Shown: positions 1 to 22,100 of the stretch, one piece after another
Numbering within the stretch: position 1 is the first letter of the stretch
Layout of the letters: every line of letters begins with the position of its first letter
NCBI GenBank assembly: GCA_030625775.1
Contig: DAOUQC010000050.1
Coordinates: forward strand, 1-36,999
Direction: 5' to 3'
Length of the DNA stretch: 36,999 nucleotides
From: Verrucomicrobiota bacterium
Lineage (GTDB): Bacteria > Verrucomicrobiota > Verrucomicrobiia > Verrucomicrobiales > DEV007
Made by a program: the position numbers and the translations under genes
The notes under the pieces: model-generated
Seen by the model: only the letters and a program-made list of their open reading frames with translations
Told to the model about the DNA's origin: nothing
Databases searched by the model: none

Positions 1-1478
1 CCAAGTGTATAAACCAGATCAGGCAACAAGGATGCCGAGCCGTTACTCGTTCCGTGAGCTTCCAGCCAGTCACTCAATTCCGTTGCCGCCATTTTCAGCG
101 ACTCTTCAGAACGGGCCGCAAGCATCAATGGCCATGGGCGATCAAGTTTTGCCGAGCTCTTCTTAACAGCAGCCTTGGCTGGCGGCTCTTCAAGAATAAT
201 GTGGGCGTTGGCTCCACCAAAACCGAAGGAGTTCACTCCAACACGGCGAGGGCCACCATTCGTATCCGGGAAATCTTCCACTTCAACCGGCACCCGGAGT
301 TTGCACTCCTCAAAATCAATGTGCTCACTTGGCTTTTCGAAATGCAGGCTCGGTGGAATTTGCCCACGACTGACCACTAGAGCCGCCTTGATCAAGCCAG
401 CAACACCAGCCGCCGTTTCCAAGTGCCCTAAATTCGACTTCACCGAACCAATCGCCAAAGGCGCATCCGATGGACGATCCTCACACAAAGCTCCGGCAAG
501 AGCGTGAGCTTCGATCGGGTCACCTACAGCGGTTCCCGTTCCGTGTGCTTCCACGTAGCCGATGCTGTTTGGCTCAATGCCGGCATCCTTACAGGCATCT
601 TTCACCAGACGTCTCTGCGCATCTTCACCGGGAAGCGAAATCCCATTGGTATGACCATCCTGGTTCGTGGAGGACCCACTGATAACCGCATGAATCGTAT
701 CACCATCTGCAATCGCCTTTGACAGCGGCTTCAGCAAAACCATGCCTGCACCTTCACCTCGAACGAAACCACTGGCTTTTGCATCAAAGGCTCGGCATTT
801 GCCTTCAGGGGACAACATTCCCGCTTGCGAGAATCCGATAAATCCATCCGGAGTGATCATCACGGTCACTCCGCCGGCAAGTGCCATTTCACAGCGCCCT
901 GCGAGCAATTGTTCACAAGCGACATGAGCCGCACTCAGAGCCGACGAACAGGCCGTGTCCATGGCGATACTTGGCCCGAGAAGATTAAAACAATAAGAGA
1001 TCCGGTTAGCGGCGATACTGTGAGCATTGCCAGTTGGCGAATGAGGACTAATCCCGGTACGGTCAGTTGCACTGCCCTGGATACTCTGATAATCCGTGTG
1101 CGAGATTCCGGCGAACACACCGATGTCCGTTCCATTCTCCAGATCAAGAATGATGCCAGCATCTTCCATGGCCTCATAGGCCGTCTCCAACAACAAGCGC
1201 TGCTGCGGATCAATGTAAGGAGCTTCACGTGGTGAAATCCCGAAAAACTGTGGGTCAAACTGATCAATCCCTTCAATGAATCCACCCCGCTTGGCGACAG
1301 ATTTTCCTGCCAGACCAGGCTCGGCATCGTAAAAACGCTCTATATTCCAACGATCCTCAGGAACCTCCACTACAGCATCCTTGCCCTCGAGCAAAAAATC
1401 CCAGTACGATTCAACGTCATTAAGCTTACCGGGAAAGCGGCAGCCCATTCCAATGATAGCAATTTTTTCCTTGTCCAT
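1..1478 (-). CDS. Type I polyketide synthase, N-terminal ketosynthase part (cut by window edge)
   Basis: The reading frame is open from the ATG at 1476-1478 to the first base, giving about 490 visible residues, so the gene continues outside the window. The N-terminus IAIIGMGCRFPG is typical of modular polyketide synthase ketosynthases. The catalytic triad of the family is visible: Cys177 in DTACSSAL, His312 in EAHGTGT and His352 in SVKSNLGHLE. The motif GVNSFGFGGANAHIILEE closes the ketosynthase, and the following Trp-Pro-rich stretch looks like the linker to an acyltransferase domain. In this family the domain condenses an acyl starter with a malonyl-type extender. The domains beyond the edge, and so the product, cannot be read. 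A start-proximal promoter candidate lies at 1539-1567. It is divergent from the secreted and lipid-modifying genes that follow. The family call is firm; the choice between polyketide and polyunsaturated fatty acid synthase is open. Confidence 0.93.
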   Translation of the reverse strand, partial: MDKEKIAIIGMGCRFPGKLNDVESYWDFLLEGKDAVVEVPEDRWNIERFYDAEPGLAGKSVAKRGGFIEGIDQFDPQFFGISPREAPYIDPQQRLLLETAYEAMEDAGIILDLENGTDIGVFAGISHTDYQSIQGSATDRTGISPHSPTGNAHSIAANRISYCFNLLGPSIAMDTACSSALSAAHVACEQLLAGRCEMALAGGVTVMITPDGFIGFSQAGMLSPEGKCRAFDAKASGFVRGEGAGMVLLKPLSKAIADGDTIHAVISGSSTNQDGHTNGISLPGEDAQRRLVKDACKDAGIEPNSIGYVEAHGTGTAVGDPIEAHALAGALCEDRPSDAPLAIGSVKSNLGHLETAAGVAGLIKAALVVSRGQIPPSLHFEKPSEHIDFEECKLRVPVEVEDFPDTNGGPRRVGVNSFGFGGANAHIILEEPPAKAAVKKSSAKLDRPWPLMLAARSEESLKMAATELSDWLEAHGTSNGSASLLPDLVYTL

Positions 1479-1538
1479 GTAAACCAAGTATCCCTCATCA
1501 TGCGTCCATAGACATTCGATGAATGGTAGATAATTTTA

Positions 1539-1567
1539 ATTTTAGAGCATAATTAAGCAGATTTGAA
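1539..1567 (-). promoter_or_regulatory. Candidate sigma70-type promoter of the polyketide synthase gene
   Basis: On the minus strand TTCAAA (1562-1567) and TAAAAT (1539-1544) are separated by 17 bp. The -10 box matches consensus at five of six bases and the -35 box at four. The predicted start lies roughly 50 nt upstream of the ATG at 1478. The rest of the 1479-1784 gap is AT-rich near 1530-1560 and holds nothing else I can name apart from the promoter candidate of the next gene. Confidence 0.4.
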
Positions 1568-1742
1568 CAGCAGAACTACACAAAACTACGCACCTCTCCC
1601 TTCCAGCTTCAGACTGTTGCGAGAGAAGTCATGGAATTCGCACAAAATATGGCCTTTTGCAAGTGCTGTTTAAGGAAAAGTAGCCCGCACTGGGGCAAGC
1701 TTCACTCCAGCCCTAATTTTTCCAAATGGCAAAGCACTTACC

Positions 1743-1771
1743 TTGACAGACCCCCCTGTTCTACTACTTTA
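1743..1771 (+). promoter_or_regulatory. Candidate promoter of the chalcone-isomerase-like gene
   Basis: A perfect TTGACA lies at 1743-1748. The -10 box is uncertain: TACTTT at 1765-1770 (16 bp spacing) is the best-placed match. The next gene starts at 1785, so the leader would be very short. The gene has no Shine-Dalgarno sequence in front of it. Confidence 0.35.
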
Positions 1772-1784
1772 AAATCTATATTTT

Positions 1785-2381
1785 ATGAAATTTATAAAAA
1801 CCCGTCCCTGGTTCCGCTTACTTGTGTGCGCTGTAATTTTAGGCGTCTTTTGCACCTCTGCCAAAGCTGGCCATGTCAAAGGCATCCTTCTCCCGGAAAT
1901 CATTGCCATCAATAAAAACAAAGTCCTTCTCAACGGAACAGCTGTCAGGGCAAAATGGGGCTTCAACGTCTATGTCGTCGCCCTCTATCTGACTGAAAAG
2001 ACCCGGGATGCTGACACCATAATGCTTAATCGTGACCCGAAACGCATCCACATCACGATGTTGCACAGTGTGAGTGAAAAACGATTCGTATCGACGATCC
2101 AAAAAAACATCGTGATTAACTTCACTGAAGAGGAACGGGTGAAGTTTGCCTCTGGACTCACTGATTTCATGGCGTGTTTTCATGGGGGAACATCACTAAA
2201 AAAATACAGTACCATTAATATTGATTATATCCCAGGCAAAGGCATGCACGTGGAAGTAGATGGAGAAGATTTTGAAATGATTCCAGGTGATGATTTTTAC
2301 CATGCGATTATGCGCCTGTGGATAGGTCAACCGCTTCAGAAATCAATCAGGGAAGGACTTGTCGGCAAAACAGACAAGTAG
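1785..2381 (+). CDS. Secreted chalcone-isomerase-like domain protein
   Basis: This 198-residue protein has an N-terminal signal peptide (basic start, hydrophobic core at residues 9-22, likely cleavage after SAKA), so it should be exported. The mature part follows the bacterial chalcone-isomerase-like pattern: a strand with LLNGTAVRAKWGFNVYVVALYL near the start, and DDFYHAIMRLWIGQPLQKSIREGL near the end, which matches the typical FY..I...WLG....K..L ending. The bacterial members of this fold are generally not demonstrated flavonoid enzymes; some plant relatives bind fatty acids. A lipid- or polyketide-binding role would suit the neighbouring polyketide synthase and lipoprotein hydrolases, but that is inference. 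The gene is followed by a stem-loop with a T-run, so it is probably transcribed alone. Confidence 0.78.
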   Translation: MKFIKTRPWFRLLVCAVILGVFCTSAKAGHVKGILLPEIIAINKNKVLLNGTAVRAKWGFNVYVVALYLTEKTRDADTIMLNRDPKRIHITMLHSVSEKRFVSTIQKNIVINFTEEERVKFASGLTDFMACFHGGTSLKKYSTINIDYIPGKGMHVEVDGEDFEMIPGDDFYHAIMRLWIGQPLQKSIREGLVGKTDK

Positions 2382-2419
2382 CCCAGGCTTGATAAGCATT
2401 TTGTGAGACAGAAAGGTGG

Positions 2420-2445
2420 GACAGAGCTCCGATTCTGTCATTTTT
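2420..2445 (+). terminator. Candidate rho-independent terminator after the chalcone-isomerase-like gene
   Basis: GACAGA (2420-2425) pairs with TCTGTC (2434-2439) around an 8-nt loop, followed by A and five T. The stem is only 6 bp (7 with a G-T pair), so it is modest. The loop and right arm are part of an 18-bp sequence that recurs near the right end of the window. Confidence 0.45.
2426..2443 (+). repeat. 18-bp repeat, copy 1 (gctccgattctgtcattt)
   Basis: This 18-nt sequence occurs exactly again at 36863-36880 in the same orientation, both times in intergenic DNA. Here it forms the loop and right arm of a terminator-like hairpin. Flanking bases differ between copies. Confidence 0.6.
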
Positions 2446-2478
2446 AACTCGGATCCTTTTTAAACCAAACCTTATCCT

Positions 2479-2507
2479 CTTACATGTTTTCTCCTTTATA
2501 ATAAAAT
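2479..2507 (+). promoter_or_regulatory. Candidate promoter directly in front of the first lipoprotein hydrolase gene
   Basis: CTTACA (2479-2484), 17 bp, then TAAAAT (2502-2507), only 4 nt before the ATG at 2512. An overlapping TATAAT sits at 2497-2502. Either would give a transcript that begins at or a few bases before the start codon, and no Shine-Dalgarno sequence is present. Confidence 0.4.
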
Positions 2508-2511
2508 ACTT

Positions 2512-4164
2512 ATGCGCCTTCTTACACAAATAACACGTCATATTTTATGCTTGCTGGCGATTTTACTTTTGCTCCCCGCCTGCAGCTATTATTCCAAAGC
2601 CAGAAAACAATCCGTCTCAGCTGTGGCAGTCACCGCCGGACAAAAGGATTTGTACAAATCGATGAAGCTGCTCAAGAAGCATCCGCTCGCAAAACTGGGA
2701 CTCTATCTGGATTCAGCTAATACCTCACGATTGCAACTGGCAAAAAATCCGTCCAATGCCTCAGCTCAATCCGATTACAACTTTGCGGTCGCCCGAATTG
2801 TTGAGATTATCCATGAGGAAGGACTACGTCCCTGGAACGCTCCACTGACCTGCGTCTCCGGCGATACAAGCAAGTGGAGCCTAAGCCTCAAGCCCGTGAA
2901 CCAGCGACAGAAAAAGAATCTTTCTTACTATGACATCTCTCCAGCTGACCGCTATGACTTCAAGGGCAAGCTGGTGGGAGAACACAAACTGAAAAAAGGT
3001 TTGGGCGCCCCGGTCATCGCCGTTGCCAAAAACGTTGACTTCAAAAAAGTCTCCCGTCCCCCCAAGAACGGAAAACTGAGATTTTATGGCTTGACCGCAG
3101 TGATTCGTTTTCAGGGACAAAAGTGCGTAATTCAGTTGATCGATCCACTATCCACAGAAAATACCTCACTCGACAATCACAGCTACCCGCTGGCTGCTGA
3201 TTTCCAGGCTCCTCTGGCTCTGGCCCTGGCAGAACTCAATTTGAAAAAAGTGGAGCTCGCAGGAATGTTCTCACCCTCCAAAAACAAGGTTACCGCACGT
3301 TTGGCACGCCTCCAACCCTACAGTGCCGAAAAAACCCCGGTTCTTTTCATTCATGGCCTGGGCAATTCCCCCGCCACCTGGGCTCCCATGGTTGATTACC
3401 TGAGAAATGATGCTGCTATCCGAAAACGTTACCAGTTCTGGTTCTTCAGTTACCCCACAGGCCTGCCTTACCCGATGAATGCCGCCGCCTTGAGAACGCA
3501 ACTGGGTGAGATGAAAAAACGTTATCCGAAGCACAAGGATATAATCATCGTCGCCCACAGCCTGGGAGGGAACATCACCCGCCTGTTGGTCACAGACACA
3601 GGAATGACGGTGTGGGACAAATATTATGCCAAGGATCCTGGAGATATACCCTTCAGCGACAAAACACGGAAACTGATGAGCGAAGCGCTTATTTTCAAAG
3701 CCCAACCCAATATTGGCCGGGTCATCTTTGCTTCGGCCTCCCTCCGCGGCAGTAACGATGCGACTAGTTTTACAGGGCGCCTGGGAGTCAAGCTCATTGG
3801 CAACCCCTTCTCGAAAGATCAAAACACCGAAGAAGCATTGGCCTACGTGCGGCCGGAAATAAAGCAGCTGGGCAGAAAACACCTGCCCAACAGCGTCGAA
3901 ATCCTCAATCCTGACAGCATGTTTCTCAATTTGATCAACTCCCTGCCCATCAAAGCCGGAATCCCCTACCACACCCTCATTGGAGACCGCGGCAAAGGAG
4001 GAAACCTTGATCACACCAAACCGGTAAGCAGCGACGGCATCGTGCCCTACTGGAGCAGCCACCTGGATGGCGCTGTGAGTGAAAAAATCATCCCCAGTGA
4101 ACACTGGAGTATTCTCCATCCAATGGGTATGGCTGAAGTGAAGCGTATCCTGCTGAAATACTAA
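2512..4164 (+). CDS. Alpha/beta-hydrolase lipoprotein, paralog 1
   Basis: This 550-residue protein opens with a lipoprotein signal: hydrophobic residues 11-22 and the lipobox LPAC with Cys24, followed by Ser, which favours the outer membrane. The first ~265 residues are an unrecognised N-terminal region. The hydrolase domain starts at PVLFIHGLGNSPATW (oxyanion-loop HG at 281-282). The nucleophile elbow is AHSLGG with Ser350, the likely acid is Asp508 in SDGIVPYW, and the likely catalytic His is His531 in SEHW. The family hydrolyses esters or amides; the SYPTGLPYP stretch and lipase-like elbow suggest lipid esters. It is followed after 163 bp by a paralog with the same layout, so the pair arose by tandem duplication. 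The substrate is unknown; position beside a polyketide synthase suggests a lipid or polyketide ester at the envelope. Confidence 0.85.
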   Translation: MRLLTQITRHILCLLAILLLLPACSYYSKARKQSVSAVAVTAGQKDLYKSMKLLKKHPLAKLGLYLDSANTSRLQLAKNPSNASAQSDYNFAVARIVEIIHEEGLRPWNAPLTCVSGDTSKWSLSLKPVNQRQKKNLSYYDISPADRYDFKGKLVGEHKLKKGLGAPVIAVAKNVDFKKVSRPPKNGKLRFYGLTAVIRFQGQKCVIQLIDPLSTENTSLDNHSYPLAADFQAPLALALAELNLKKVELAGMFSPSKNKVTARLARLQPYSAEKTPVLFIHGLGNSPATWAPMVDYLRNDAAIRKRYQFWFFSYPTGLPYPMNAAALRTQLGEMKKRYPKHKDIIIVAHSLGGNITRLLVTDTGMTVWDKYYAKDPGDIPFSDKTRKLMSEALIFKAQPNIGRVIFASASLRGSNDATSFTGRLGVKLIGNPFSKDQNTEEALAYVRPEIKQLGRKHLPNSVEILNPDSMFLNLINSLPIKAGIPYHTLIGDRGKGGNLDHTKPVSSDGIVPYWSSHLDGAVSEKIIPSEHWSILHPMGMAEVKRILLKY

Positions 4165-4287
4165 CAAAACTATCAGATTGAAGAATCCATCCCAGAAGCA
4201 TAGTTGATATTTTCGTGGGGCACCCAACTCTGGAAGGTTGATAAACGTCCATCGCTTTCATTCACACCCTAAGGCATCACACCAATC

Positions 4288-4316
4288 TTGACTAGCGGGC
4301 TCTTGTCCCTTAAAAA
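4288..4316 (+). promoter_or_regulatory. Candidate promoter of the second lipoprotein hydrolase gene
   Basis: TTGACT (4288-4293), 17 bp, then TAAAAA (4311-4316). The ATG is at 4328, so the leader would be about 5 nt. This suggests the second copy can be transcribed independently of the first. Confidence 0.4.
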
Positions 4317-4327
4317 TGGTGTAAGTT

Positions 4328-5968
4328 ATGCGAACAACACGCCATTTTCTAGGCTTGATGAGCGTCTTGATCTTGCTGGTCGGATGCAGCCAATACGCCA
4401 AGGTTTCGAAGCGCCCAATTTGGGCGATTACAGATAGCCCGCAGCAAAAAGATCTCTACCGATCGACGCGATCATTCTCCAAACAACCCCTGGCACGATT
4501 GGGCCGCTACCTCGACTCAGCAAATGAAGCGCGCTTGAAACTGGCTAAAGACTCAGACGACACCATGGCCCAGTCTGATTATGATTTTGCTGTCGCCCGG
4601 ATCGTGGAAATCATCGAAGACGACAGTTTGAAGCCCTGGGAAAAACCCCTGTCCTGCCCTTCTAAGGACAAGGGCAATTGGAGCTTCACTCTCACCCCTC
4701 CGGATCCACGTCCGGAATACCATCCGTCCAAGTTCCATATGCTGCCGTCGGACCGCTATCGGTTTAAAGGCACACGCGTGGGAGAACGTGTACTACCTGA
4801 GGGAATGGGAGCCCCCGTGATTGTGATTGGCAAAGACTTTGATTACACCAAGATTGACCAATTCGCCCAGGGAAAGCGCGTCTACTATGGCATGACCGCA
4901 ATGCTCCGTTTCAAGGGGCATAAATGTGCGATTGAATTTGTCGATCCGCTGAACAAGGAAACCCTGTCACTCGATGGCCACGACTACCCGCTGGCCACCG
5001 ATTTCCAAGCACCTTTGGCTTTGTCGATGGCGGAATCAAATCCTAAGAAAACACAACGAGGCATGATGTTTTCACCAAAAAAATACGTAAACTCCGCCCG
5101 TTTATCCAGGCTCCAGCCTTACGATCCGAGAAAGGTTCCCGTGATCTTCATTCATGGCCTTGGCGATTCACAGGCCACTTGGATGCCGATGATTAATCAC
5201 CTGAGAAATAACAAAGGCATTCGGCAAAAATACCAGTTTTGGATCTTCAGCTATCCCACCGGCTTACCCTACCCCTTACCCGCATCCCAACTGCGTATGC
5301 AAATGGACCAGATGAATAAAAATTACCCCAATCACAAAGACTTCGTCATCATCGGCCACAGTCTGGGAGGTAATATTACCCGACTGTTGATCAGTAACAG
5401 CGGTATGAAAATTTGGAACACCTACTTCCCCAAACCACCTGAGGAAATCCCCTTCCACGACGAATCGCGCTACATCCTGAGCAAGATGCTCATCTTCAAG
5501 GCGCGGCCCGACGTCTCCCGGGTCATCTTTGCCAACGCATCCCTCCGTGGCAGCGAAACAGCCATCAGTTTTTGGGGGCGACTCGGGGCCAAGCTGATCG
5601 GAAATCCCATCACCATGGACCGGGTCAATAGAGAAGCGCTCGAATATGCTCGCCCGGAGTTTCGCACAGGTAGGAACCGCCTGCCCAACAGCGTTGAAAT
5701 TCTCGATCCCGGCACCACTTTTCTAAGCCTGGCCAATAGCCTGCCAATTGATCCCGGCATCCCCTACCATTCGATCATCGGCGACCAGGGCAAGGGCGGA
5801 AATCTGGACAAAACCAAACCAGTGAGTAGCGACGGCATTGTGCCCTATTGGAGCAGTCACCTGGACGGCGCCCAAAGCGAAACAATCATACCGAGCGAAC
5901 ATTGGGGCATTCAACACACCGCAGGGATGGCCGCAGTCCAGCACCTCCTGCTCAAACACGCCGATTAA
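4328..5968 (+). CDS. Alpha/beta-hydrolase lipoprotein, paralog 2
   Basis: This 546-residue protein is similar along its whole length to the gene before it, including the N-terminal region and both ends. It has its own lipobox, LVGC with Cys20 followed by Ser. The hydrolase core keeps the oxyanion HG (276-277), the elbow GHSLGG with Ser345, Asp502 in SDGIVPYW and His525 in SEHW, so both copies look catalytically intact. The elbow differs slightly (GHSLGG here, AHSLGG in paralog 1), and surface segments such as residues 380-400 have diverged, so the substrates may differ. A methyltransferase-like gene follows 47 bp downstream and may be co-transcribed. The hydrolase class is clear by motif; the chemical role is inferred only from context. 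Confidence 0.85.
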   Translation: MRTTRHFLGLMSVLILLVGCSQYAKVSKRPIWAITDSPQQKDLYRSTRSFSKQPLARLGRYLDSANEARLKLAKDSDDTMAQSDYDFAVARIVEIIEDDSLKPWEKPLSCPSKDKGNWSFTLTPPDPRPEYHPSKFHMLPSDRYRFKGTRVGERVLPEGMGAPVIVIGKDFDYTKIDQFAQGKRVYYGMTAMLRFKGHKCAIEFVDPLNKETLSLDGHDYPLATDFQAPLALSMAESNPKKTQRGMMFSPKKYVNSARLSRLQPYDPRKVPVIFIHGLGDSQATWMPMINHLRNNKGIRQKYQFWIFSYPTGLPYPLPASQLRMQMDQMNKNYPNHKDFVIIGHSLGGNITRLLISNSGMKIWNTYFPKPPEEIPFHDESRYILSKMLIFKARPDVSRVIFANASLRGSETAISFWGRLGAKLIGNPITMDRVNREALEYARPEFRTGRNRLPNSVEILDPGTTFLSLANSLPIDPGIPYHSIIGDQGKGGNLDKTKPVSSDGIVPYWSSHLDGAQSETIIPSEHWGIQHTAGMAAVQHLLLKHAD

Positions 5969-6015
5969 TAGGCAATGCCTGATTCGGGCAACGCTCTAGG
6001 TAGCAAACCACCTTT

Positions 6016-7230
6016 ATGCCAACACCACCTACAGAATCCGCCCCCAAAGAGACATCCTCCGAGCAGGCCAGCCGCAGGGAAACGAGTGCGGCTTCATTGA
6101 AACAAATCGGAGACCCATCCCTGTTGCTCAAACAGCCCGTCACTCCGATGGAGGCGGTGAACCTCTTATATTCACAAGGCAACAGCGAAATCGCTGAAGC
6201 CATTATAGCCAGCCTGCGCCGCGCAATTTTTAATAGCACCCCACCCAAACCCGCCCCCTTTTTCAAGCGCTTGCTCGCGGTGGTCTCATTTCATCTACTG
6301 AAACGAACCACCAGCACCGAAACCAAAACCGGCCATGATGGCCAGGAGTTCATCAGCTATCAGAATTCCATTCTCGAGCGATCCGACCACCCCTACGCTC
6401 AGGCCCTGTTGGAGACTTCAGGTGCCGACAGCGCCTCTTTTGTGGAAGGCGGAGACCCGATGAATGCCCCCTACATGATGATCTCTCCTGAGATCAGCCG
6501 CACTTCCTGCATCTGGGACCGGCTTCTGCTCAACTCCGTTCAGGGCAAGGATGTGCAACTTCGTTTTATCTGTGAAGCGCGGGCCACTTTACAAGCTGCA
6601 AAACAACGCTTGGATAAAGGGCAAGCCGTTCGTCTGAAAGCTGCTGCTGCCGGCACTGGATTGAGCATGATCCTGGTCTTTGATCGCCTGATTCGCGAAG
6701 GGTATGACACCTCCTTGATCACCATGACCATCACTGATCGCTGCCCAACCAACATCACCAAGATCAAACGCCTGCTGGAAAAGCTAACCAGCACCCGGGA
6801 ACACCTCGCCCCGGATAAAAAATCCTCCGGTATCTCTGCCCAGACTGAAGATTTAGTGGAGTCTGACTCCGAGCCGGATGAACCCTACCAAGTTGTAACG
6901 TTGATTGGAATTCTCGAATATTTTCACGGGTTCACCACCACCACCACCGAGGAACATCTCGGCCACCCCAGTTTGAACTTAGAGCCCTGCGCAAAAAAAT
7001 TAGCTCATTCAATAGGTGCAATGACAGCCGAATCAGGCACCTTGATCGCCAACACCTACCGGGTAGAAACAGGAGCACGCATTCTGGAAATTTTTGGCAA
7101 AAAATTCCGCTACCGCAATAGCGAAGACCTGCACGCCCTTGTTGAAATAGCAGGATTTGTTCCCACCAGCACTGCCGGATCAGGACATATCTACGATGTG
7201 GAAGTCTACGAGAAAAAAACCGGACACTAA
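6016..7230 (+). CDS. Putative class I SAM-dependent methyltransferase
   Basis: This 404-residue protein has no signal peptide and a polar, Ser/Thr/Glu-rich first ~35 residues. Around residues 206-215 the stretch LKAAAAGTGLSMIL resembles the glycine-rich S-adenosylmethionine loop (motif I). ITMTITDR some 25 residues later fits the acidic end of strand 2, and a later VTLIGILEYF fits motif IV. These are the features of class I methyltransferases, though the match is not strong enough to name a subfamily. A poorly conserved insert of about 30 residues (275-305) separates the halves. It lies 47 bp after the second lipoprotein hydrolase and converges on the adenylating enzyme gene. A tailoring role on the polyketide or lipid product would fit, but this is inference from position. 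Confidence 0.6.
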   Translation: MPTPPTESAPKETSSEQASRRETSAASLKQIGDPSLLLKQPVTPMEAVNLLYSQGNSEIAEAIIASLRRAIFNSTPPKPAPFFKRLLAVVSFHLLKRTTSTETKTGHDGQEFISYQNSILERSDHPYAQALLETSGADSASFVEGGDPMNAPYMMISPEISRTSCIWDRLLLNSVQGKDVQLRFICEARATLQAAKQRLDKGQAVRLKAAAAGTGLSMILVFDRLIREGYDTSLITMTITDRCPTNITKIKRLLEKLTSTREHLAPDKKSSGISAQTEDLVESDSEPDEPYQVVTLIGILEYFHGFTTTTTEEHLGHPSLNLEPCAKKLAHSIGAMTAESGTLIANTYRVETGARILEIFGKKFRYRNSEDLHALVEIAGFVPTSTAGSGHIYDVEVYEKKTGH

Positions 7231-7266
7231 GCAAGAGCAGGAAAAGAAAAAAGGGGGGGAAGCACC

Positions 7267-8619
7267 TCACAGCTTCACAAAAGGAACAACCAGCCGAAAC
7301 TTGCCCGTTTTCGCATCGTTCCGTATCTCATCTACTAGTTCGACATCAAAGCGAACACTCTGCTCTAACAACTTCCCCGATAGAATTTCATTCATTTTTT
7401 CACGAATTGCTGCCACAACGCTGCTCTTTTCCCCACGGACAATAGCTTTCATAAGCAGGGTATCCGGCGATGACTGAATAAATTGAAAGCGCTCAAGACC
7501 CGGAACAAAAAACTCCGCCAGCACGATGGGATGAATGAAGTCTTCTCCCCCTCCATTTTTGGAAAACCAGAGGAACTCCTCTTGCCGTCCGGCCATACTT
7601 TCAATCACCGGAAAAGACCATCCACAGGGACAAGCCTTGTCACTCATTACGATCTCATCGCTCATCTGGTAGCGAATCAACGGTTGCGTATAATTGTAAA
7701 GATTGGTGACCACTACCTGGCCCGCTTTTGCGGATTTTAAGTCGTCACCAAGCAACTGGACACTGGACCAGTCATTGAACAAATGAAGCCGATGATGACT
7801 CTTACACTCTCCTGCAAGCGTCATGGTTTCCGAACTTCCATACATATTAACCGGATTGATGGCAAAGGCCCTTTCGATCCGTTGCCTAAAGGCTGATGTT
7901 AGAGGGTCACCGGTGCAAAAAGCCTCCCTGGGATTGATACCGATGCGACCTTCAAGCTGTTCCTCCGCAAGAAGATTCAAACCCGAAGCATAACCCGTTA
8001 TGACATCCGGTTGAAAGCGATTGATTTGCTCACGAATCTCCTCAATTGAACTGCTGATGGACAAGGGCAGCAGCTTAAACAATGACCGTGGTAGATTATA
8101 AAATGAAGCAACCGATGCAAAATGCCCACCGGTTGCTGCAATAAAGGCAATCCGCTTTTTCCGGTGCAGCATTAATTCAGCTCCCGTAACCCTTAGACTC
8201 AGAGCCTTACCAAGAGTCCAGTCACTTGGCCCGTAGACAAACAATCCTATGGTTCCGCTTGAACCGGAAGTATGCACCACTGAATATTTGTTTTTGTACT
8301 TGGAGCCAGGGTCAGGAGATTCCTTGATAAAGCGCTCCAAGTCAGCTTGTTTCAGAAGCGGGTCCGTCACCAAATCATCATAATTTTCCATCATGATGTT
8401 TTTATCGATGATAGGTAAATCCCCCGGCAGAATACCATCGATATCAGCCTCGGTGATGCCGTGATCACTGTAATAACTTTTATAGAACCGGGACTTTTGA
8501 AAAGCATGTTTCAGCAACTTTCGAAACCGGTGCGCTTGCAAGCCCAGAACCTGCCGGGTATCGAGGGATTCAGCTTTTTTAACGGCTTGAATTGCCTGCC
8601 ATATACTCAAAATCGACAT
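7267..8619 (-). CDS. PaaK/CoF-synthetase-like adenylate-forming enzyme
   Basis: The family activates a carboxylic acid as acyl-AMP, usually followed by transfer to CoA. Starting from the ATG at 8617-8619 it has 450 residues, close to the usual length of phenylacetate-CoA-ligase relatives. The phosphate-binding loop is SVVHTSGSSGT (residues ~113-123), the second adenylation motif is MYGSSE (~259-264), and TQPLIRYQMSDEI further on matches the family's RY..GD-like segment. A TTG 11 codons upstream is possible, but the ATG has a promoter candidate right behind it. No carrier-protein domain is attached. It converges on the methyltransferase gene with only 36 bp between stops. It could load a starter acid for the nearby polyketide synthase; the true substrate cannot be read from the sequence. 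Confidence 0.82.
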   Translation of the reverse strand: MSILSIWQAIQAVKKAESLDTRQVLGLQAHRFRKLLKHAFQKSRFYKSYYSDHGITEADIDGILPGDLPIIDKNIMMENYDDLVTDPLLKQADLERFIKESPDPGSKYKNKYSVVHTSGSSGTIGLFVYGPSDWTLGKALSLRVTGAELMLHRKKRIAFIAATGGHFASVASFYNLPRSLFKLLPLSISSSIEEIREQINRFQPDVITGYASGLNLLAEEQLEGRIGINPREAFCTGDPLTSAFRQRIERAFAINPVNMYGSSETMTLAGECKSHHRLHLFNDWSSVQLLGDDLKSAKAGQVVVTNLYNYTQPLIRYQMSDEIVMSDKACPCGWSFPVIESMAGRQEEFLWFSKNGGGEDFIHPIVLAEFFVPGLERFQFIQSSPDTLLMKAIVRGEKSSVVAAIREKMNEILSGKLLEQSVRFDVELVDEIRNDAKTGKFRLVVPFVKL

Positions 8620-8623
8620 GTAA

Positions 8624-8652
8624 TTAATATTTTCCCTACAGGTCAGTAACAA
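8624..8652 (-). promoter_or_regulatory. Candidate promoter abutting the adenylating enzyme gene
   Basis: On the minus strand TTGTTA (8647-8652), 17 bp, then TATTAA (8624-8629), with only 4 nt to the ATG. If used, the mRNA would be leaderless. Confidence 0.3.
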
Positions 8653-8796
8653 AACTGAATCATGCCGGAAGCAGCTCTCTCTGTTTTCACCACATCAGAG
8701 ATACTTCGTTCGAACGGCTTCATATAATTAGCTGATGCAGCTGGGAGAATTACCTTGAGGCCCTAGTAAAACCATATTCTTATTCGCACTATACTC

Positions 8797-9603
8797 TTAT
8801 CGGGGAATCCTGAAATCATTAAGAGAAGAAGTGGTGAAATCTTTATCCGTAAATTTCACATCGTGGCGGATGTTCGAACCTTCAATTTCAGTCACCGTGC
8901 TGCCATCAGGGCGACGAACCACAAGACTTGCCGGGATGTAACGTTTGCCGTCATCCCTGGCCACGCGTGTGGTCTCGATTTCCCGGGCTAACTTGCCGGC
9001 GGCATCGTATTTTTCCACCCGAAGGGCAACCAATCGATCCAGGTCAATCCAGCTCTTCACTTTGCTGTAAGGCGTCGAGTCCTTCGTGCCCGGTTTTGAT
9101 TCCAAAATCAGACACTCAACACGATCAATCGTCTCCTTTCCCGAAAGGCTCTGATTCTCCCAACGGAAAAAATTCTCAACCACATCCTGATAAGCCAGAT
9201 CACTGCCAAGCAGAGCATCTTTCATCTGCGCTTTGCCCAAGGGGCTCACTTTTTTCTTGGATGCATCGTAAGCAACTCCTTTAGGTGCCCCCCCGCCTTC
9301 CTGCTGAATAAGAAAGGCCTGCCCCTTGCGTGTCTTCGGCCAAAGCACCTGGTATAACACATCGGTCTTTTTAGCGCTGCGCCGGGCCTTGACCTGTATT
9401 TGAAGAACCACCTTCTCCCCCCCGTCCGTAGGCTTGATATTCAAGCGCAATCGCGTAGCCGATTCCCCGTCTTCAACCACCCCACTGAGACGCGCTGCCA
9501 GATCCGCTGCGGAAGGCGAATCCCCCTCAGCTCCTGCAGGCATCACAATGCAAAACACCCCCAGCCCGACCAGACATATCATTCGTTGATAAAAATTCAG
9601 CAT
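8797..9603 (-). CDS. LolA-like outer-membrane lipoprotein-sorting family protein
   Basis: This 268-residue exported protein has a signal peptide (hydrophobic residues 9-22, cleavage probably near PAGA). The body matches the outer-membrane lipoprotein-sorting family with a LolA-type half-barrel: a strand-rich N-terminal half with VVLQIQVKARR, the LLGSDLAYQDV segment typical of the family, and a C-terminal strand ending near FTTSSLNDFRIPR. In the family, such proteins bind lipidated or hydrophobic cargo in the periplasm, and similar genes occur in aryl-polyene and related lipid clusters. I chose the ATG at 9601-9603 over a TTG two codons upstream. TTGACT on the minus strand ends 28 nt before this ATG, which would again place a promoter against the start. 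It lies behind the adenylating enzyme gene on the same strand. Confidence 0.82.
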   Translation of the reverse strand: MLNFYQRMICLVGLGVFCIVMPAGAEGDSPSAADLAARLSGVVEDGESATRLRLNIKPTDGGEKVVLQIQVKARRSAKKTDVLYQVLWPKTRKGQAFLIQQEGGGAPKGVAYDASKKKVSPLGKAQMKDALLGSDLAYQDVVENFFRWENQSLSGKETIDRVECLILESKPGTKDSTPYSKVKSWIDLDRLVALRVEKYDAAGKLAREIETTRVARDDGKRYIPASLVVRRPDGSTVTEIEGSNIRHDVKFTDKDFTTSSLNDFRIPR

Positions 9604-9685
9604 GAGCAAAAGAAAAGCCTTAGTGCCCTCTAGTCAACCATGAAGAGCTGGCGAAGGAGGGGTAAAACCCTCCTCTTCCAACATG

Positions 9686-9717: not shown

Positions 9718-9755
9718 CTGCCAGCCTCTCCTAAAGCACCACCCTGATAATCAAG

Positions 9756-9828
<73 letters not shown>

Positions 9829-10674: not shown

Positions 10675-11216
10675 ATGCTGTCGATTCTGAGTTCTGATTC
10701 AGGCAAGTTCTGTAACGGGGTGTCCCGACGGAACTTCCTGCGAATTGGCAGTTTGGGCCTCGGAGGAATGGCTCTACCCGAGCTCCTGCTTACAAGGGTC
10801 ACAAGGCGGTCATCATGATTTTTCTCCCGGGTGGACCTTCCCATCAGGACATGTGGGACATCAAAACCGATGCACCCTCGAAAGTGCGGGGTGAATTTCA
10901 TGCTATCGAAACGAAGGTTCCTGGCATTCAGATCGGTGAGTTGTTTCCAAAAAACGCCGCCACTGCCAGCAAAGGAGCAAAAGCTGAACTGGTAAAAAAA
11001 GTAGCTGCTGCAAAAACCGCTCTGGATACGGCGACGAAAAACGCCGCCACTGCCACCGCCAGAACCACTGCTGCCACCAAGGCAAAAACCTCTGCCATTG
11101 CAGTCACTAAAGCTGCGACCGCCAAGGCCAAGGTCAAGGATCTGAAGTTCGCCGTCTACTCCGCTCCTATCACTATTGAGATCAAGAAGGCGGGAAAAGT
11201 TCCAGCAAAAAAATAG
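10675..11216 (+). pseudogene. Decayed DUF1501 gene, frameshifted and fused to a PPC-protein-like tail
   Basis: The ATG at 10675 opens a typical DUF1501 start with the Tat signal [15 protein letters not shown]. That frame hits TGA at 10816. The expected continuation [20 protein letters not shown] appears in another frame, so one base was lost (or two gained) around 10785-10800. The second frame runs through [17 protein letters not shown] and [13 protein letters not shown], the usual DUF1501 opening. It then leaves the family abruptly. From about 10960 it is an Ala/Lys-rich helix ending [20 protein letters not shown], which parallels the ends of both PPC proteins downstream (FASPSFPVSVEVKPVPKP and FASFSYPISVEVKPDPK). 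About 350 DUF1501 residues and most of a PPC protein are missing. This is a deletion scar from an ancestral cluster copy. Residual expression of the second frame cannot be excluded. Confidence 0.85.
10950..11055 (+). repeat. 19-bp direct repeat at the pseudogene junction (10950-10968 and 11037-11055)
   Basis: The sequence aaaaacgccgccactgcca occurs exactly at 10950-10968, where the DUF1501 part ends, and at 11037-11055 inside the Ala/Lys-rich tail. Both encode KNAATA in the same frame. Its location at the switch point suggests that short homology joined the two genes. Confidence 0.7.
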
Positions 11217-11397
11217 AAATTGTCATTCCCCCGGTCTTTTCGACGTTTTTTGAACTTTTCTCCTGAAATGCCCTCTAAAATGGAGGGTATTGAGTCCTGT
11301 TTATTTTAAACTCTTGATGGCAATGAATGGCCGTAATTTTCCATTTGATACCGTCCACAGTTGCCTTTTTGTAAAATACCCCAAACACCTGCTGAAT

Positions 11398-13980
11398 ATG
11401 GAATTACAAAAAACCATTCAAATCGTTGCCGCCATTTTGCTCATCACTTTTCCGCCCCTGGCAGCTGAAGAAAAAAAAGCAACGACACCCCCTCCTGCTC
11501 CTACCGCAAGCGCTGCCGCAAAACCTGCAACACCTGCCACCTCAAGCAGCCTTTCCATCACCGCTCGATTGGGAGCCAAGGACATTTTTCTGAACGGCCC
11601 TGATTCCCGCCAGCAAATGGTTATCACTTCCACTATCAGTGATAACAGCCGCCCTGTGATCGATGTGACGCCTAAAGCAAAATATACGTCTGCCCCGGCA
11701 GGCATCGTTGCAATTGACTCACACGGTTTCATTACCCCGCTTGCAGACGGAAAAGCCACCATCACGGTCAGCCACAAAAACGACCAGACCACCAGCATCC
11801 CGGTCACGGTCAATCATTTCAAAAGCCCACCCCCGATCAGTTTTCCCAATGACATCGTGCCGATCTTCACCCGCAACCACTGCAATGCAGGAGCATGCCA
11901 CGCCAAGTCCGCCGGGCAAAACGGCTTCCGACTTTCCCTCTTTGGATACAGCCCGGAGATGGATCATGAATACATTGTCAACGAATCCCGTGGACGGCGC
12001 ATCTTCCCCGCTTCGCCGAAACACAGCCTGCTGCTGACCAAATTGACCGGGGAAACCCCTCATGGCGGCGGCGCCCGGATTGACGAGGAATCCGTCGCTT
12101 ACAAAATGATGTTGCGCTGGATCCAGGAAGGCACCCCTTACACCCCCGACAATGATCCGGTAGTCGAACGCATCGAAATTTTCCCCAGGGAAAGAGTCGT
12201 TCAACCCCACAGCAAACAGCAACTGCTGGTCACCGCCTTTTTCAGCAATGGCACAAGCCGCGATATCACCCACTCCGCCCAATTTGAATCCAACCAGGAG
12301 GACATGGCTGAAGTCGACGAAACCGGACTGGTTACTTTTGAAGGGGAAACTGGTAGCACCTCGGTGATGGTTCGTTTCCAGGAACAAATCGATGTCTTCA
12401 TGGCGACCATCCCGCTGGGCATCAAAATGCCGCCCCTGCCCAAGCCCAACAATTTCATCGACGAGCAGATTTTTCACCAACTCACCATTCTCGGACTGCC
12501 CCCCTCGGGCAGCAGCGATGATGGCACCTTCCTGCGCCGGGTCTCACTGGACATCGCCGGGCGGCTTCCTTCTATTGAAGATACCCAAAGTTTTCTAAGC
12601 TCAAAAGATCCCAACAAACGCACCAAAAAGATCGACGAGCTTCTCGATAGCACGGACTATGCCGACTTTTTCGCAGGCAAGTGGGCGGGACTTTTGCGCA
12701 ATAAAAGCGGCGGCAGTCTGGACTGGGTTTCGCGAAACACTTATGCCTTTCACTCCTGGCTTCGTTCCAGCTTGCTCAAGAACAAACCCTACGATCAGAT
12801 AGCCGGCGAACTGATCACCGCCAGCGGCAAAACCAGCGAGAATCCCGCAGTTAGTTGGTACCGGGTGGTCAAGGATCCCAAAGAACAGATGCAGGACATT
12901 GCCCAGGTTTTCCTCGGTATTCGCATGCAATGCGCCCAGTGCCATCACCATCCCTACGAAAAATGGAGCATGGACGATTATTATGGTCTGACTGCTTTTT
13001 TCACCACCATCGGCCGCAAGGAAATTTATAAATTGCCCGAAGAAGACATCATCTACCACAACCGGAAAATCGCCCAGGCCCAAAACCCGAACAGCAAAAA
13101 AACAATCAAACCCACCCCTCTCGGTGGCAAAGCCCTGGACATTCCCGCCGAAGTGGATCCGCGCAGACAACTGGCCGATTGGATCCGCGCCAAGGACAAT
13201 CCTTATTTTGCCAGAATGCTGGTCAACCGCTACTGGAAACATTTTTTCAGTCGCGGACTGGTCGAACCGGAAGACGATATTCGTCCAACCAACCCGGCCA
13301 CCCACCCGAAACTGATGAAACAGCTTTCCAAACACTTTGTCGATAGCGGCTTCGATTTGAAAGATCTCATTCGCACCATCTGCAACAGCCGCACCTACCA
13401 ACTGAGCGCCGAACCCAATGAGCATAACGGGAATGATGCACAGAACTTCGCCCGTTATTACCCCAAACGCCTGCAGGCTGAAGTGCTGCTCGATTCGATC
13501 AATGAAGTGGCTGGAACGGAAAACTCGTTCAACAAACAACCCCTGGGAGTCCGGGCCATCGCTCTGCCTGACGACAACGCCAATAAAGAATCCGAATTCT
13601 TAACCATGTTCGGTCGTCCGCAAATGGACACCGCCAGTGAAAGCGAGCGAACAGGTGATGCCAACCTCGGACAAAGCCTGCACCTGATTAACTCGGAAAA
13701 AATCCAGGCAATCATCGCCAACAGCAAAGGCCGCGCGCATACCCTGGCGAAAGAAAAAGACCGCAGCGACGAAGAGCGTATCACTGAAATCTACCTGCAG
13801 GCTATTTCACGCCAGCCTAATCAAAGCGAACTCAGTATCGCCAAAAACCATCTGAAAAAGAAACGTGCCCTGTCGGCTGCCGATCCCAAAAAATTACCGG
13901 TGACAAAAGCCGAGCAGGAAGGCTTTGAGGACATTCTCTGGGTACTGGTCAATACCAAGGAGTTCCTCTTCAACCACTGA
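11398..13980 (+). CDS. Exported DUF1549/DUF1553 protein with cytochrome-like CX4CH and CXXCH motifs
   Basis: From the ATG at 11398 this is an 860-residue protein with a signal peptide (residues 1-21). A TTG at 11290 would add 36 residues that bury the signal, so I reject it. Domains in order: a Pro/Ala-rich linker, an Ig-like domain (~50-140), the CNAGACH motif (162-168), which is common in planctomycete and verrucomicrobial proteins of this type, a second Ig-like domain (~240-330), then DUF1549 with MQCAQCHHHPYEKW (CXXCH at 512-516) and DUF1553 to the end. These families are abundant in the superphylum, probably periplasmic and possibly heme-binding, but their biochemical role is not established. 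It is the first gene of the four-gene cluster. Its usual partner, DUF1501, is present only as a pseudogene upstream. Confidence 0.9.
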   Translation: MELQKTIQIVAAILLITFPPLAAEEKKATTPPPAPTASAAAKPATPATSSSLSITARLGAKDIFLNGPDSRQQMVITSTISDNSRPVIDVTPKAKYTSAPAGIVAIDSHGFITPLADGKATITVSHKNDQTTSIPVTVNHFKSPPPISFPNDIVPIFTRNHCNAGACHAKSAGQNGFRLSLFGYSPEMDHEYIVNESRGRRIFPASPKHSLLLTKLTGETPHGGGARIDEESVAYKMMLRWIQEGTPYTPDNDPVVERIEIFPRERVVQPHSKQQLLVTAFFSNGTSRDITHSAQFESNQEDMAEVDETGLVTFEGETGSTSVMVRFQEQIDVFMATIPLGIKMPPLPKPNNFIDEQIFHQLTILGLPPSGSSDDGTFLRRVSLDIAGRLPSIEDTQSFLSSKDPNKRTKKIDELLDSTDYADFFAGKWAGLLRNKSGGSLDWVSRNTYAFHSWLRSSLLKNKPYDQIAGELITASGKTSENPAVSWYRVVKDPKEQMQDIAQVFLGIRMQCAQCHHHPYEKWSMDDYYGLTAFFTTIGRKEIYKLPEEDIIYHNRKIAQAQNPNSKKTIKPTPLGGKALDIPAEVDPRRQLADWIRAKDNPYFARMLVNRYWKHFFSRGLVEPEDDIRPTNPATHPKLMKQLSKHFVDSGFDLKDLIRTICNSRTYQLSAEPNEHNGNDAQNFARYYPKRLQAEVLLDSINEVAGTENSFNKQPLGVRAIALPDDNANKESEFLTMFGRPQMDTASESERTGDANLGQSLHLINSEKIQAIIANSKGRAHTLAKEKDRSDEERITEIYLQAISRQPNQSELSIAKNHLKKKRALSAADPKKLPVTKAEQEGFEDILWVLVNTKEFLFNH

Positions 13981-14028
13981 TCTGTCATCAGCTAGCGCTT
14001 GCGCTGCACCCTTTCAAAAACCCCTTCC

Positions 14029-16572: not shown

Positions 16573-16607
16573 ACATCAACCCGCCTTGCTCTCATTTTCC
16601 AACCAAA

Positions 16608-19145: not shown

Positions 19146-22100
19146 TCCTGAATCACCAAAACTATCCTACCCGCACAAGGCTATTGCCCATGATGCCCCA
19201 AGCCTGTTTGACCTTGCCCCTTGCTCTCGTTTTGAGCGTCAGCGGCCTTTCCCCGGTTTCAGCCGACCCGCTCAAAATAGCAAAAATCAGCGCTGATCGA
19301 AAAGTTGATTTTGGTAAGGAAATCTACCCCTTCCTACGCAAGAACTGCCTGGCCTGTCACAATACCACCAAAGCAAAAGCCAAGCTGAACATTGAAACAC
19401 CTGCTTTGATGATCAAAGGCGGTGACACCGGTTCCTCGGTTGTGCCCGGCAAAGGTGCTGACAGCCTGCTCTTCACCACTTCCGGCCATATGGAAGAACC
19501 GACGATGCCGCCGGACAAAAACAAGTCAAAAGCCAGGAACCTGACTTCCGAGCAACTGGCCTTGCTGAAACTGTGGATTGACCAAGGGGCCATTGGTTCC
19601 CGCGTCATCGCCGAGGCACCCACCAAGTGGACACCCCTCACCGGCATTCAACCTATCTACGCCTCTGCTCTTTCCAGTGACGGTCGTTTCGCAGCTGTCG
19701 GGCGTGGGCATGAAATCCAGCTTTACGACTTGCGTCTCGGCCGCTTGATCAACACGATCAGTGACCCTGCTTTAAAAGACCTTACTCTTTCCTCACGCGG
19801 AGCTGCTCATAAGGACTTTGTCAGCACCCTCGCTTTCAGCCCGAACGGAGATCTTGCTTCCGGAGGTTTCCGCATCGCCAAACTCTGGACTTTTACCCCC
19901 GGCAAAAAAGAAAGTGAAGTCACCCTGCCTGCCGAAACAAAAACAATAGCCACCAGTCCAGACGGCAAATGGATCGCATCAGGCGGAACCGATGGCTCCA
20001 TCACCCTTATTAAGACAAACGATGCAAAAGCCAAGCCTGTCACAGTCAAAGATCACACGGCAGCGGTCACCGCGCTGGCCTTCACCGGTGACAATGCCGC
20101 TCTCATTTCAGCCTCTGCTGACAAAACCCTGCGCCTGCGAACTTTGACAGATCCTACTAAAAGCAAAAAAATTGATGCCGGCATTGCACAAAATGCCCTT
20201 GTTTATCTAAAAACAGGAAATCAGTTAGCCAGTGCCGGCACGGACAGCCATATCCGCCTGTACCCGCTCACCGCCTTTAATTCCCCAGCGGCTCCGAAGC
20301 CAGCCGCAAAACCGGTGCCGGCGAAACCCTCCCCCGCTAAATCGGCTCCAGCCAAAACTGCGGCAAGTCAAACGACAGGCACTCCACAAACGATCGCCAC
20401 CCTTAAGGCCTTTACCGCCATCCTGGTAGCGGCGGAAACGGCAGCCGTAATTACACCCGCCAAGCCCGCTGCGGCTAAAAAACCGGCTACTCCGGCCAAA
20501 CCTGCTCCGGCGAAAAAGCCAGCGAGCAAACCTGCGCCCGCAAAAGCCGCACCCGCAAAAAAAGCCGTGCCAGCTGCTGCAAAAGCAACAGCCAAAGCAC
20601 CGGCACCTGCACCGACAAAACCCGTCGCCCCTCTTTACACTGAACTCAAAGGCCACGGTAAGGCAGTTACAGCCCTGGCTCTGCTTGACCCCGAGGGAAA
20701 GCAAATCATCTCGGCATCGGAGGACGGAAGCATCCGCATCTGGGATATTGCAGGGGAAAAAGCCATCCGCACAATCAACCATGGCGGTGGCGTGGTCGCT
20801 CATCTGGCCGTCAGCGCTAACGGACAATACATTCTCTCTTCAGCCAAAGAAGGGCCCGCCCGTCTCTGGAATGCCAAGGACGGCAAACGCATTGCCGAAC
20901 TGAAAGGAAACCCTGATCTCGTTGCTGACCGGGATACTGTGCAACGACGGATCGATCTGGCAAAACGCCTGGCCGCTGAATTCACCAAGGCATTGCCAGC
21001 AGCAGAGAAAGTCTGGACGGAAGAATCCACCAAAGCGACCGAAGCAGCGACTCAAGCGGTCAGTGCCCGTTTGGAGTCTGAAAAGAAAATGGCTGCCCTC
21101 AATGAAATACGACGCAAAATCCCGGCAGCTAAACCTGACGATCTCAAGAAAGCAGAAGAAGCCGCTGCCAAAGCAAAAAACGCGCTTGCGATCGCAGAGC
21201 GAAATCGGGATTTGTCCATCCGTCTGACATCCCAGGCAGCTGAAAAACATGTCGCTCTGAAAATCAAAAACCAGACCGCAATCAGTACGGAAAAAAACCT
21301 CAGTGAAGAAATCAAAAAACTCAATGAAGGCATCGCCAAAGACGATAAAACAGCCTTACAAGCGCTCGCGTTTGCCCCCGACTCGAGCCAGGCAGCGCTT
21401 GCACTAGCCGACGGTTCACTGCGTTTCTGGAATGCAGCGACAGGAAAATACCTGCACTCCATTCGTCAGGCCAGCTCAAGCCTCGCCATCCGCTATACTC
21501 CTACGGGACGTTTACTGGACGCACGGAAGGATAAAAAACTAGCTCGCTGGAATCCCGATCCCCAGTGGAACTGGACCGCCAACCTTGGGGATGGAGAAAA
21601 CGCCGACATCTTCCCTGATCGGGTGACCGCCCTTGCCTACAGTCGGGATGGCAGCATTCTGGCCACAGGTTCGGGAGTGCCCTCCCGAAGCGGCGAACTG
21701 AGGCTGTGGGATTCATTGACCCACAAAGCGATCATCGCCAACAACGAAGCCCACGATGATACCATCGCAGCTATCGCTTTTTCACCGGATGACGGAAAAA
21801 TCGCCACCGCATCCACGGATCGTTTTGTGAAAACCTTCGATGCCAGTACGGTGGAATTCATCCGCGGTTACGAAGGACACACCTCCCACGTACTCGATGT
21901 CGATTGGAGTCCGGACGGTCGCCACCTCGCTTCCGGCAGTGCCGACAAACAAGTCAAAATCTGGGACTTCGAAACAGGTTCCCAGACCAAAAAAATCGAA
22001 GGTTACGAAAAAGAAGTGACCGCAGTCGCTTACATCTCCAACACTGACCAACTGCTCACCGCTTCCGGAGACAAAAAGGTCAAGCTGAACACTGCTGCCC

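Follow-up and report, generated by a model that had tools for sequence, protein, structure and literature searches.

A conserved and apparently undescribed gene cluster of Verrucomicrobiota that may make and export a polyketide lipid

The window analysed here is a stretch of 36,999 nucleotides from a Verrucomicrobiota bacterium (DAOUQC010000050.1), which forms contig C89 of a 4.88-Mb genome in 158 contigs (genome G000). At its left end it carries the 5' part of a type I polyketide synthase (PKS) gene, and genes for a secreted chalcone-isomerase-like protein, two hydrolase lipoproteins, a methyltransferase-like protein, an adenylating enzyme and a LolA-like carrier. These genes are part of a conserved gene cluster, whose core consists of the PKS, a condensation protein, a desaturase, an ATP-binding cassette (ABC) transporter and the LolA-like protein. 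The cluster probably makes a polyketide lipid of the outer membrane and exports it through a Lol-like shuttle of its own, the product, the iterative use of the synthase and the transport being predicted. An earlier note on this DNA had proposed that the genes make up one envelope lipid or polyketide pathway; conserved gene order and co-occurrence support the single pathway, and an envelope lipid is still the presumed product.

No description of this cluster was found among the papers listed by searches of the open-licence PMC literature, so that it is apparently undescribed, though annotations of type I PKS in Verrucomicrobiota already exist (e.g. in passages of PMC12193912). If the reading is true, the cluster would give a new class of outer-membrane lipid in a widespread and poorly cultured phylum, and also a genetically compact example of a shuttle of the LolDE/LolA type that serves a polyketide lipid. 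A 2025 study of Bacteroidota states in part of its text that pathway-specialised LolA/LolB-like proteins would be the first example to its authors' knowledge (PMC11885536). The cluster was also present in records not labelled as metagenome bins, namely Brevifollis gellanilyticus NBRC 108608, Verrucomicrobium sp. BvORR034 and BvORR106, and Chthoniobacter flavus Ellin428, and the idea is thus directly testable. In the stretches of B. gellanilyticus NBRC 108608 and Verrucomicrobium sp. BvORR106 that were read, both the PKS and the condensation frame were open.

Conservation of the cluster across genomes

The first 141 bases of the window were identical to the last 141 bases of contig C150, as expected if the assembler broke one path, and the PKS frame stayed open across this overlap to give a protein of 2,589 residues. 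On C150 the PKS gene was followed on the same strand by genes for a stand-alone condensation protein, a fatty-acid desaturase, an ABC ATPase and a MacB/FtsX permease, with intergenic gaps of 17, 22, 65 and -4 bases from the PKS through the permease. All the genes listed in the earlier note were confirmed within positions 1-9609 by open reading frame (ORF) listing and family profile scans (Table 1), with only about half of the cluster in view there. A tRNA-Met gene at 9755-9828 marked the boundary of the gene group.

The co-occurrence of the genes was surveyed in 95 genomes, own genome included, with thresholds of E 1e-60 for the condensation protein and E 1e-10 for LolA. The condensation protein was found in 16 genomes, all of which carried the LolA-like gene; the latter was present in 18 genomes in total, with two among the 79 that had no condensation protein. 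A pattern scan of a collection of genome contigs, based on the LolA alignment, revealed 48 loci, all from groups that we take by the names in the record titles to be Verrucomicrobiota. After 16 shorter loci were set aside, 32 had at least 6 kb upstream of LolA, and in 27 of them the PKS, condensation protein, desaturase, ATPase and permease were all present. When the loci from genomes used for building the models were left out (L082, L083, L098, L099, L102, L103 and L127), all five partners were present in 23 of 25. Four of these seven loci had all five; L082 and L127 lacked all five, and L083 showed the PKS alone, its stretch ending there, while the remaining partners are present in its genome (G002). 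The ABC ATPase and permease were found in 40 of the 48 loci.

The usual gene order was PKS, condensation protein, desaturase, ATPase, permease and LolA, with LolA preceding the ATPase in four cases (L103, L125, G474 and G478). Both the order of the genes and their co-occurrence recur in other genomes, so the clustering is not due to chance. The earlier note had considered that co-occurrence might be absent in relatives, and the opposite was found. Of the families it had grouped together, the PKS and LolA belong to the core; the hydrolases were in tandem in two genomes (G000 and G002), the chalcone-isomerase-like protein was found in few loci, and the ligase was next to LolA in four genomes.

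In the genome of the window, the PKS and the other left-hand core genes lie on the strand opposite to the chalcone-isomerase-like gene, the two groups being divergent and about 300 bases apart. This arrangement would fit two unrelated neighbours, a left PKS operon and a right group of chalcone-isomerase-like, hydrolase, methyltransferase and LolA genes, and the synthase could then be part of another, complete cluster on the left side. In relatives, the left-hand genes share one run with LolA, often together with the methyltransferase and a hydrolase. Core genes, LolA and methyltransferase followed one another in a single run and orientation in L153, L158 (hydrolase too), L086, L102 and L166, so two unrelated units are very improbable and were rejected.

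The methyltransferase-like family occurred in seven of the 95 genomes, all within the LolA-bearing set. In a wider sample of the order it was found in 21 of 386 genomes and lay beside cluster genes in 20 of them; eight of the 21 had supplied the alignment, giving an independent count of 12/13. Eighteen shared a stretch with LolA (G000 being the window itself). In G487 and G497 the gene lay beside the PKS and condensation genes, where the fetched stretch ended, and in G475 it was on a 4,173-base contig without other cluster genes. The gene of G510 was split over contigs, and its second half placed the methyltransferase with LolA.

Some loci showed further arrangements. In L162, L163 and L166 (G487, G497 and G510, from one genus) the methyltransferase gene preceded the PKS by about 0.9 kb and shared its orientation, and the run in G510 continued with condensation protein, desaturase, ATPase, permease and LolA. 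Runs of ATPase, permease, LolA and methyltransferase were seen in L085, L088, L152, L155 and L157, with the PKS not in the fetched stretch. When the ORFs left unassigned in the 48 loci were clustered, a single family was common to four or more loci; it was present in five, was response-regulator-like by eye and is not a further core gene. Broken frames were observed in the PKS of G002 (near its end), the PKS of L119 and the condensation gene of L101. In L110 (Chthoniobacter flavus Ellin428) the PKS and condensation genes were in several frames, owing to draft errors or decay. A leucine-rich-repeat protein was encoded just downstream of the permease in L006 (6803-8908, minus strand), with the same neighbour in G002 (79% identical), and was unmatched in the other loci compared.

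Synthase, condensation protein and transporter

The earlier note had proposed reading the remainder of the synthase to the left of the window. Profile scans revealed all seven domains on a single polypeptide in the order ketosynthase (KS), acyltransferase (AT), dehydratase (DH), C-methyltransferase (cMT), enoylreductase (ER), ketoreductase (KR) and acyl carrier protein (ACP), with the condensation protein as neighbour. The KS part in the window matched ketoacyl-synt with E 1.2e-97. Motifs found by pattern were DTACSS, GHSVGE, HPFH (AT), DHKVDSHIVFP (DH), EVGAGTG (methyltransferase), GGVGMA, TGGFGGFG and GLDSL, and the Ser/Tyr/Asn motif of KR was read directly in the translation. Relatives supplied 21 PKS frames of more than 5 kb. 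Of these, 19 had the AT motif H[AP]FH and none had YASH, all 21 had the DH motif and 20 the KR motif, and in 16 the S-adenosylmethionine (SAM) motif was matched in the internal methyltransferase. An AT motif of the HPFH type points to malonyl-CoA; taken with the SAM motif, it suggests that methyl branches would derive from SAM.

The best solved-structure match by sequence to the 2,140-residue part of the PKS was mycocerosic acid synthase (MAS; E 4.9e-178). LovB (7cpx) was among the solved matches of both the PKS and the condensation protein, with MAS and several other chains outscoring it for the PKS. The best curated model of the same part was that of the sulfolipid synthase Pks2 (Pks2_ls1_myc) at 739 bits, far below the cut-off of 2400, and the 495-residue KS part reached 490 bits. 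One PKS gene per cluster was seen in the stretches of relatives, so iterative use of the single module is likely.

For the condensation protein, the HHxxxDG motif was present in 28 of 28 frames of relatives scoring above 300 bits, and also in the protein of the own genome. Its nearest solved structures were condensation domains of nonribosomal peptide synthetases (NRPS) or PKS-NRPS hybrids, and no chain named PapA5 was among its 53 solved-structure matches. Profile scanning found no thioesterase domain in the PKS; with the HHxxxDG motif, release of the chain onto an acceptor by the condensation protein would be the simplest reading.

The cluster ATPase had LolD as its best curated match (242 bits, below the cut-off of 307.75). 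The permease matched MacB_PCD and FtsX, with MacB as best NCBIfam match (63 bits), and reached 50.7 bits against the LolCE model, under the cut-off of 362.45. These permease matches, together with the resemblance of the condensation protein to NRPS domains, could also point to a secreted small molecule (an antibiotic, siderophore-like compound or signal) leaving through a MacB-type pump, with LolA and the hydrolases maturing lipoproteins or detoxifying. That possibility is rather unlikely: neither a membrane-fusion protein nor a TolC-like pore was recognised among the annotated genes, and a LolD-like ATPase and a LolA-like protein that accompanies the core in 27/32 loci fit a membrane lipid better.

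The LolA-like protein passed PF17131 with 102.7 bits (cut-off 30), and its predicted model had a pLDDT of 90.6. The model was closest to the DUF1329 protein 4z48 (Z 28.3, root-mean-square deviation (rmsd) 2.6, 233 aligned) and to Porphyromonas gingivalis LolA3, 9tp6 (Z 27.3, rmsd 2.7, 233 aligned), and classical LolA chains gave Z 13.6 and lower. LppX was not among the best 50 rows of VIA-align 2, which is no proof of difference, and it ranked 49 in Foldseek. P. gingivalis LolA3 is reported, in passages of PMC13103446, to bind LolB very weakly, and a separate function was suggested by the authors there.

A separate LolCE-like permease was encoded on C91; at 297.5 bits it outscored the cluster permease and was itself below the curated cut-off (362.45). 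A classical LolA (PF03548) was located on C82, above cut-off. The Lol-like set of the cluster is therefore an extra one, and a housekeeping Lol role was rejected on the basis of this second set. The extra set could instead sort lipoproteins for the cluster hydrolases, with the polyketide taking another route. The carrier has the LolA fold and the hydrolases resemble lipoproteins, and the same alternative is left open by the authors of the Bacteroidota LolA2 study in the part of PMC11885536 concerned. Lipoprotein sorting is nevertheless improbable, since hydrolases were found in 8/48 loci against 40/48 for ATPase and permease, the hydrolases possibly being undercounted.

Methyltransferase-like and accessory proteins

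No Pfam model matched the methyltransferase-like protein above its cut-off (best 11.6 bits against 27); Methyltransf_20 was matched in seven of 12 family members, with a best E of 0.00078. The sequence search of solved structures gave no confident relative of the family (best E 0.94). The predicted model (pLDDT 74.0) had 3ocj as its top row (Z 17.7, rmsd 3.7, 248 aligned) and gave Z 16.7 with the C-methyltransferase of CurJ (rmsd 3.6, 256 aligned) and Z 15.6 with DszA, other kinds of methyltransferase scoring nearby. By this predicted model, the protein has the Rossmann methyltransferase fold and is assigned to the class I SAM methyltransferases.

The hydrolase pair, the chalcone-isomerase-like protein and the ligase are lineage-specific accessories. 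In the hydrolases, the lipobox Cys and the motif residues of GHSxGG, SDG and SxHW were invariant in nine of nine aligned sequences, the lipobox and triad being assigned manually. The PF12697 cut-off was passed by hydrolase lipoprotein 1 only, and lipase matches among solved structures were weak (best E 0.00014). Two copies in tandem were observed in G000 and G002 alone, with a single copy in the other cluster loci that had a hydrolase. Members of the family lay next to the methyltransferase or the PKS; examples are L103, L125, G671, G474, G478 and G081. Its eight members among the 48 LolA loci included two distant ones (L101 and L104), and the count may be low where loci were cut short. In L101 (6548-8143) and L104 (6431-8107) the distant member (237-242 bits) was located between desaturase and ATPase. 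Related hydrolases were present in 84 of the 95 genomes; the family taken together therefore does not mark the cluster, and a general lipase role may apply.

The chalcone-isomerase-like protein passed PF16036 (Chalcone_3) with 113.6 bits (cut-off 27), and its signal peptide was assigned by eye from the translation. Chalcone-isomerase-fold matches among solved structures were weak (best E 0.0016). The protein was found in four of the 95 genomes, all within the LolA-bearing set. Proteins of this fold include some that bind fatty acids and some that bind heme, as passages of PMC9996372 describe, so binding of a lipid by this one is a guess.

The adenylating ligase had no Pfam match and met TIGR02304 with E 6e-33, below the cut-off of that model; it also weakly matched FlxY. 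It adjoined LolA in four genomes (G000, G001, G002 and that of L092, where it was 30% identical).

Proposed pathway and comparison with known systems

In the proposed pathway, the single fully reducing PKS module would be used repeatedly on malonyl-CoA to give a saturated, methyl-branched acyl chain, in which the membrane desaturase might introduce a double bond. The condensation protein could then move the chain from the carrier domain onto an amine or hydroxyl acceptor, as the observed HHxxxDG motif suggests. The discrete methyltransferase may methylate the product or the chain in trans, judging from its fold similar to those of PKS C-methyltransferases, and in this genus the PaaK-like ligase may activate an extra carboxylic acid. 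The LolD-like ATPase and the LolE/MacB-like permease would be expected to extract the lipid from the inner membrane, and the LolA-like carrier to ferry it across the periplasm, judging from fold, operon and the presence of a further Lol set in the genome. Once in the periplasm or at the outer membrane, the lipid might be trimmed or transacylated by the lipoprotein hydrolases, possibly in the manner of mycobacterial Chp2, and bound by the chalcone-isomerase-fold protein.

Several observations weigh against such a dedicated pathway. G076 has ATPase, permease and LolA, and the condensation protein was not found there. The genomes of L085, L106 and L129 have the LolA-ABC module with no matching condensation protein found (completeness unstated). 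In L127 (G075) LolA has no adjacent ABC genes and the condensation protein was not found, and the genomes of L087, L088 and L128 encode the condensation protein away from LolA. As the module occurs in some genomes without the condensation protein, the shuttle may carry something else in some lineages. The LolA model was matched at E 1e-40 in at least six of 383 phylum-sampled genomes of completeness at least 90, a lower bound with up to six candidates scored per genome, so the cluster is patchy rather than universal. In five of the 21 long PKS frames, no SAM motif was matched in the internal methyltransferase. Fairly close relatives of the hydrolase, 43-52% identical, are in G007 (62% complete), G059 and G078, three genomes that gave no match to LolA or to the condensation protein, and G007 also has a close relative of the ligase (69%). 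LolB or an outer-membrane pore was not recognised, no search having been aimed at either.

Other loci deviated as well. For L089, the condensation protein was not found in the genome (completeness unstated). L088 and L128 had ATPase, permease, LolA and methyltransferase with no adjacent PKS, together with a hydrolase in L088 and a desaturase fragment in L128. The condensation matches of L111 and L113 were weak and inside long NRPS-like frames.

By analogy, the layout of the cluster is parallel to the mycobacterial acyltrehalose and phthiocerol dimycocerosate (PDIM) pathways and to aryl-polyene and flexirubin clusters, and it is a member of neither group. With the diacyltrehalose/polyacyltrehalose (DAT/PAT) and PDIM systems (Pks3/4 or MAS, FadD, PapA, Chp2, MmpL, DrrABC and LppX) it shares a reducing PKS with MAS as best solved match, a presumed acyltransferase role for a condensation-fold protein, an anchored periplasmic alpha/beta hydrolase, a transporter and a LolA-fold carrier. 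Methyl branches in the mycobacterial pathways come via methylmalonyl-CoA, whereas here they would come from the internal C-methyltransferase acting with a malonyl-type AT. Further differences are that the condensation protein is nearest to NRPS condensation domains (no PapA5-named chain among the 53 matches), that the transporter is a LolDE-like ABC rather than MmpL in a Gram-negative host, that the carrier is nearest to DUF1329 and LolA3 with LppX far weaker in Foldseek, and that the PKS does not reach the Pks2-type curated cut-off. According to passages of PMC4183827, Chp2 is an alpha/beta hydrolase anchored in the membrane, where it transacylates acyltrehaloses at the periplasmic side, and LppX is reported in part of PMC11539658 to be necessary for PDIM translocation.

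The aryl-polyene and flexirubin clusters resemble this one in having a LolA-like carrier within a polyketide cluster whose product is in the outer membrane, as is presumed here. Passages of PMC8253772 list LolA-like ApeL, the resistance-nodulation-division (RND) transporter ApeM and LolB-like ApeN in the aryl-polyene cluster of Escherichia coli, and part of PMC11885536 puts forward as a proposal that the LolA2 and LolB2 of flexirubin loci help to move the pigment or the lipoproteins of the locus. A divergent pigment cluster of this kind might be considered, as such clusters pair synthases, adenylating enzymes, methylation and LolA/LolB according to passages of the same two sources, and the ligase weakly matches FlxY. 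It is hardly probable here: a type I fully reducing PKS would be expected to give a saturated chain and not a polyene, no discrete ketosynthase (singly or as a pair) was found among the proteins scanned, and no RND transporter was matched among the scanned proteins of the window and C150, the annotated transporter being the ABC ATPase with the FtsX/MacB permease. The type II enzymes, RND transporter and LolB-like partner of aryl-polyene clusters (passages of PMC8253772) contrast with a type I PKS, a LolDE-like ABC and no recognised LolB, and membership in that group was rejected on synthase type.

The shuttle resembles LolCDE-LolA in its ATPase nearest to LolD, partly LolCE-like permease and LolA-fold carrier; it differs in scores under the curated LolD and LolCE cut-offs, in the separate Lol set of the genome and in its PKS-encoding locus. 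Fungal highly reducing PKS of the LovB type have the same domain order with an internal C-methyltransferase and a condensation partner, but in contrast to LovB the condensation unit is a separate protein here and ER is internal. Tentatively, and with slightly less than even confidence, we suggest that Verrucomicrobiota arrived independently at a Gram-negative equivalent of the machinery for complex lipids in mycobacteria. It would combine a PKS that resembles MAS and has methylation built in, an acyltransferase of the condensation fold, periplasmic lipoproteins resembling transacylases, and a duplicated, re-purposed Lol shuttle whose cargo is a polyketide lipid in place of lipoproteins.

Table 1. 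Cluster genes located in the window
Feature	Position	Strand	Remarks
Type I PKS, 5' part (KS and start of KS-AT linker)	1..1487	-	Start TTG 1487 or ATG 1478; rest on C150
Secreted chalcone-isomerase-like protein, 198 aa	1785..2381	+	PF16036; lineage-specific accessory
Alpha/beta-hydrolase lipoprotein 1, 550 aa	2512..4164	+	Conserved lipobox Cys, Ser/Asp/His
Alpha/beta-hydrolase lipoprotein 2, 546 aa	4328..5968	+	58% identical to hydrolase lipoprotein 1
Class I SAM-methyltransferase-like protein, 404 aa	6016..7230	+	Cluster-associated family; predicted fold near PKS C-methyltransferases
PaaK/F390-synthetase-like adenylating enzyme	7267..8652	-	ATG at 8619; accessory
LolA-like periplasmic lipid carrier (predicted)	8797..9609	-	PF17131; ATG at 9603; core gene

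Beyond the tRNA gene, positions 10815-22279 (plus strand) of the window encoded DUF1501, PSCyt2/PSD1 (DUF1549/DUF1553), two proteins with pre-peptidase C-terminal domains and a long WD40-repeat protein, a group apparently separate from the cluster. In addition, an intergenic element was observed at 2408-2443, with copies of 28-35 bases and 91-96% identity on C56, C133 and C121, and a similar string was visible near the right end of the window.

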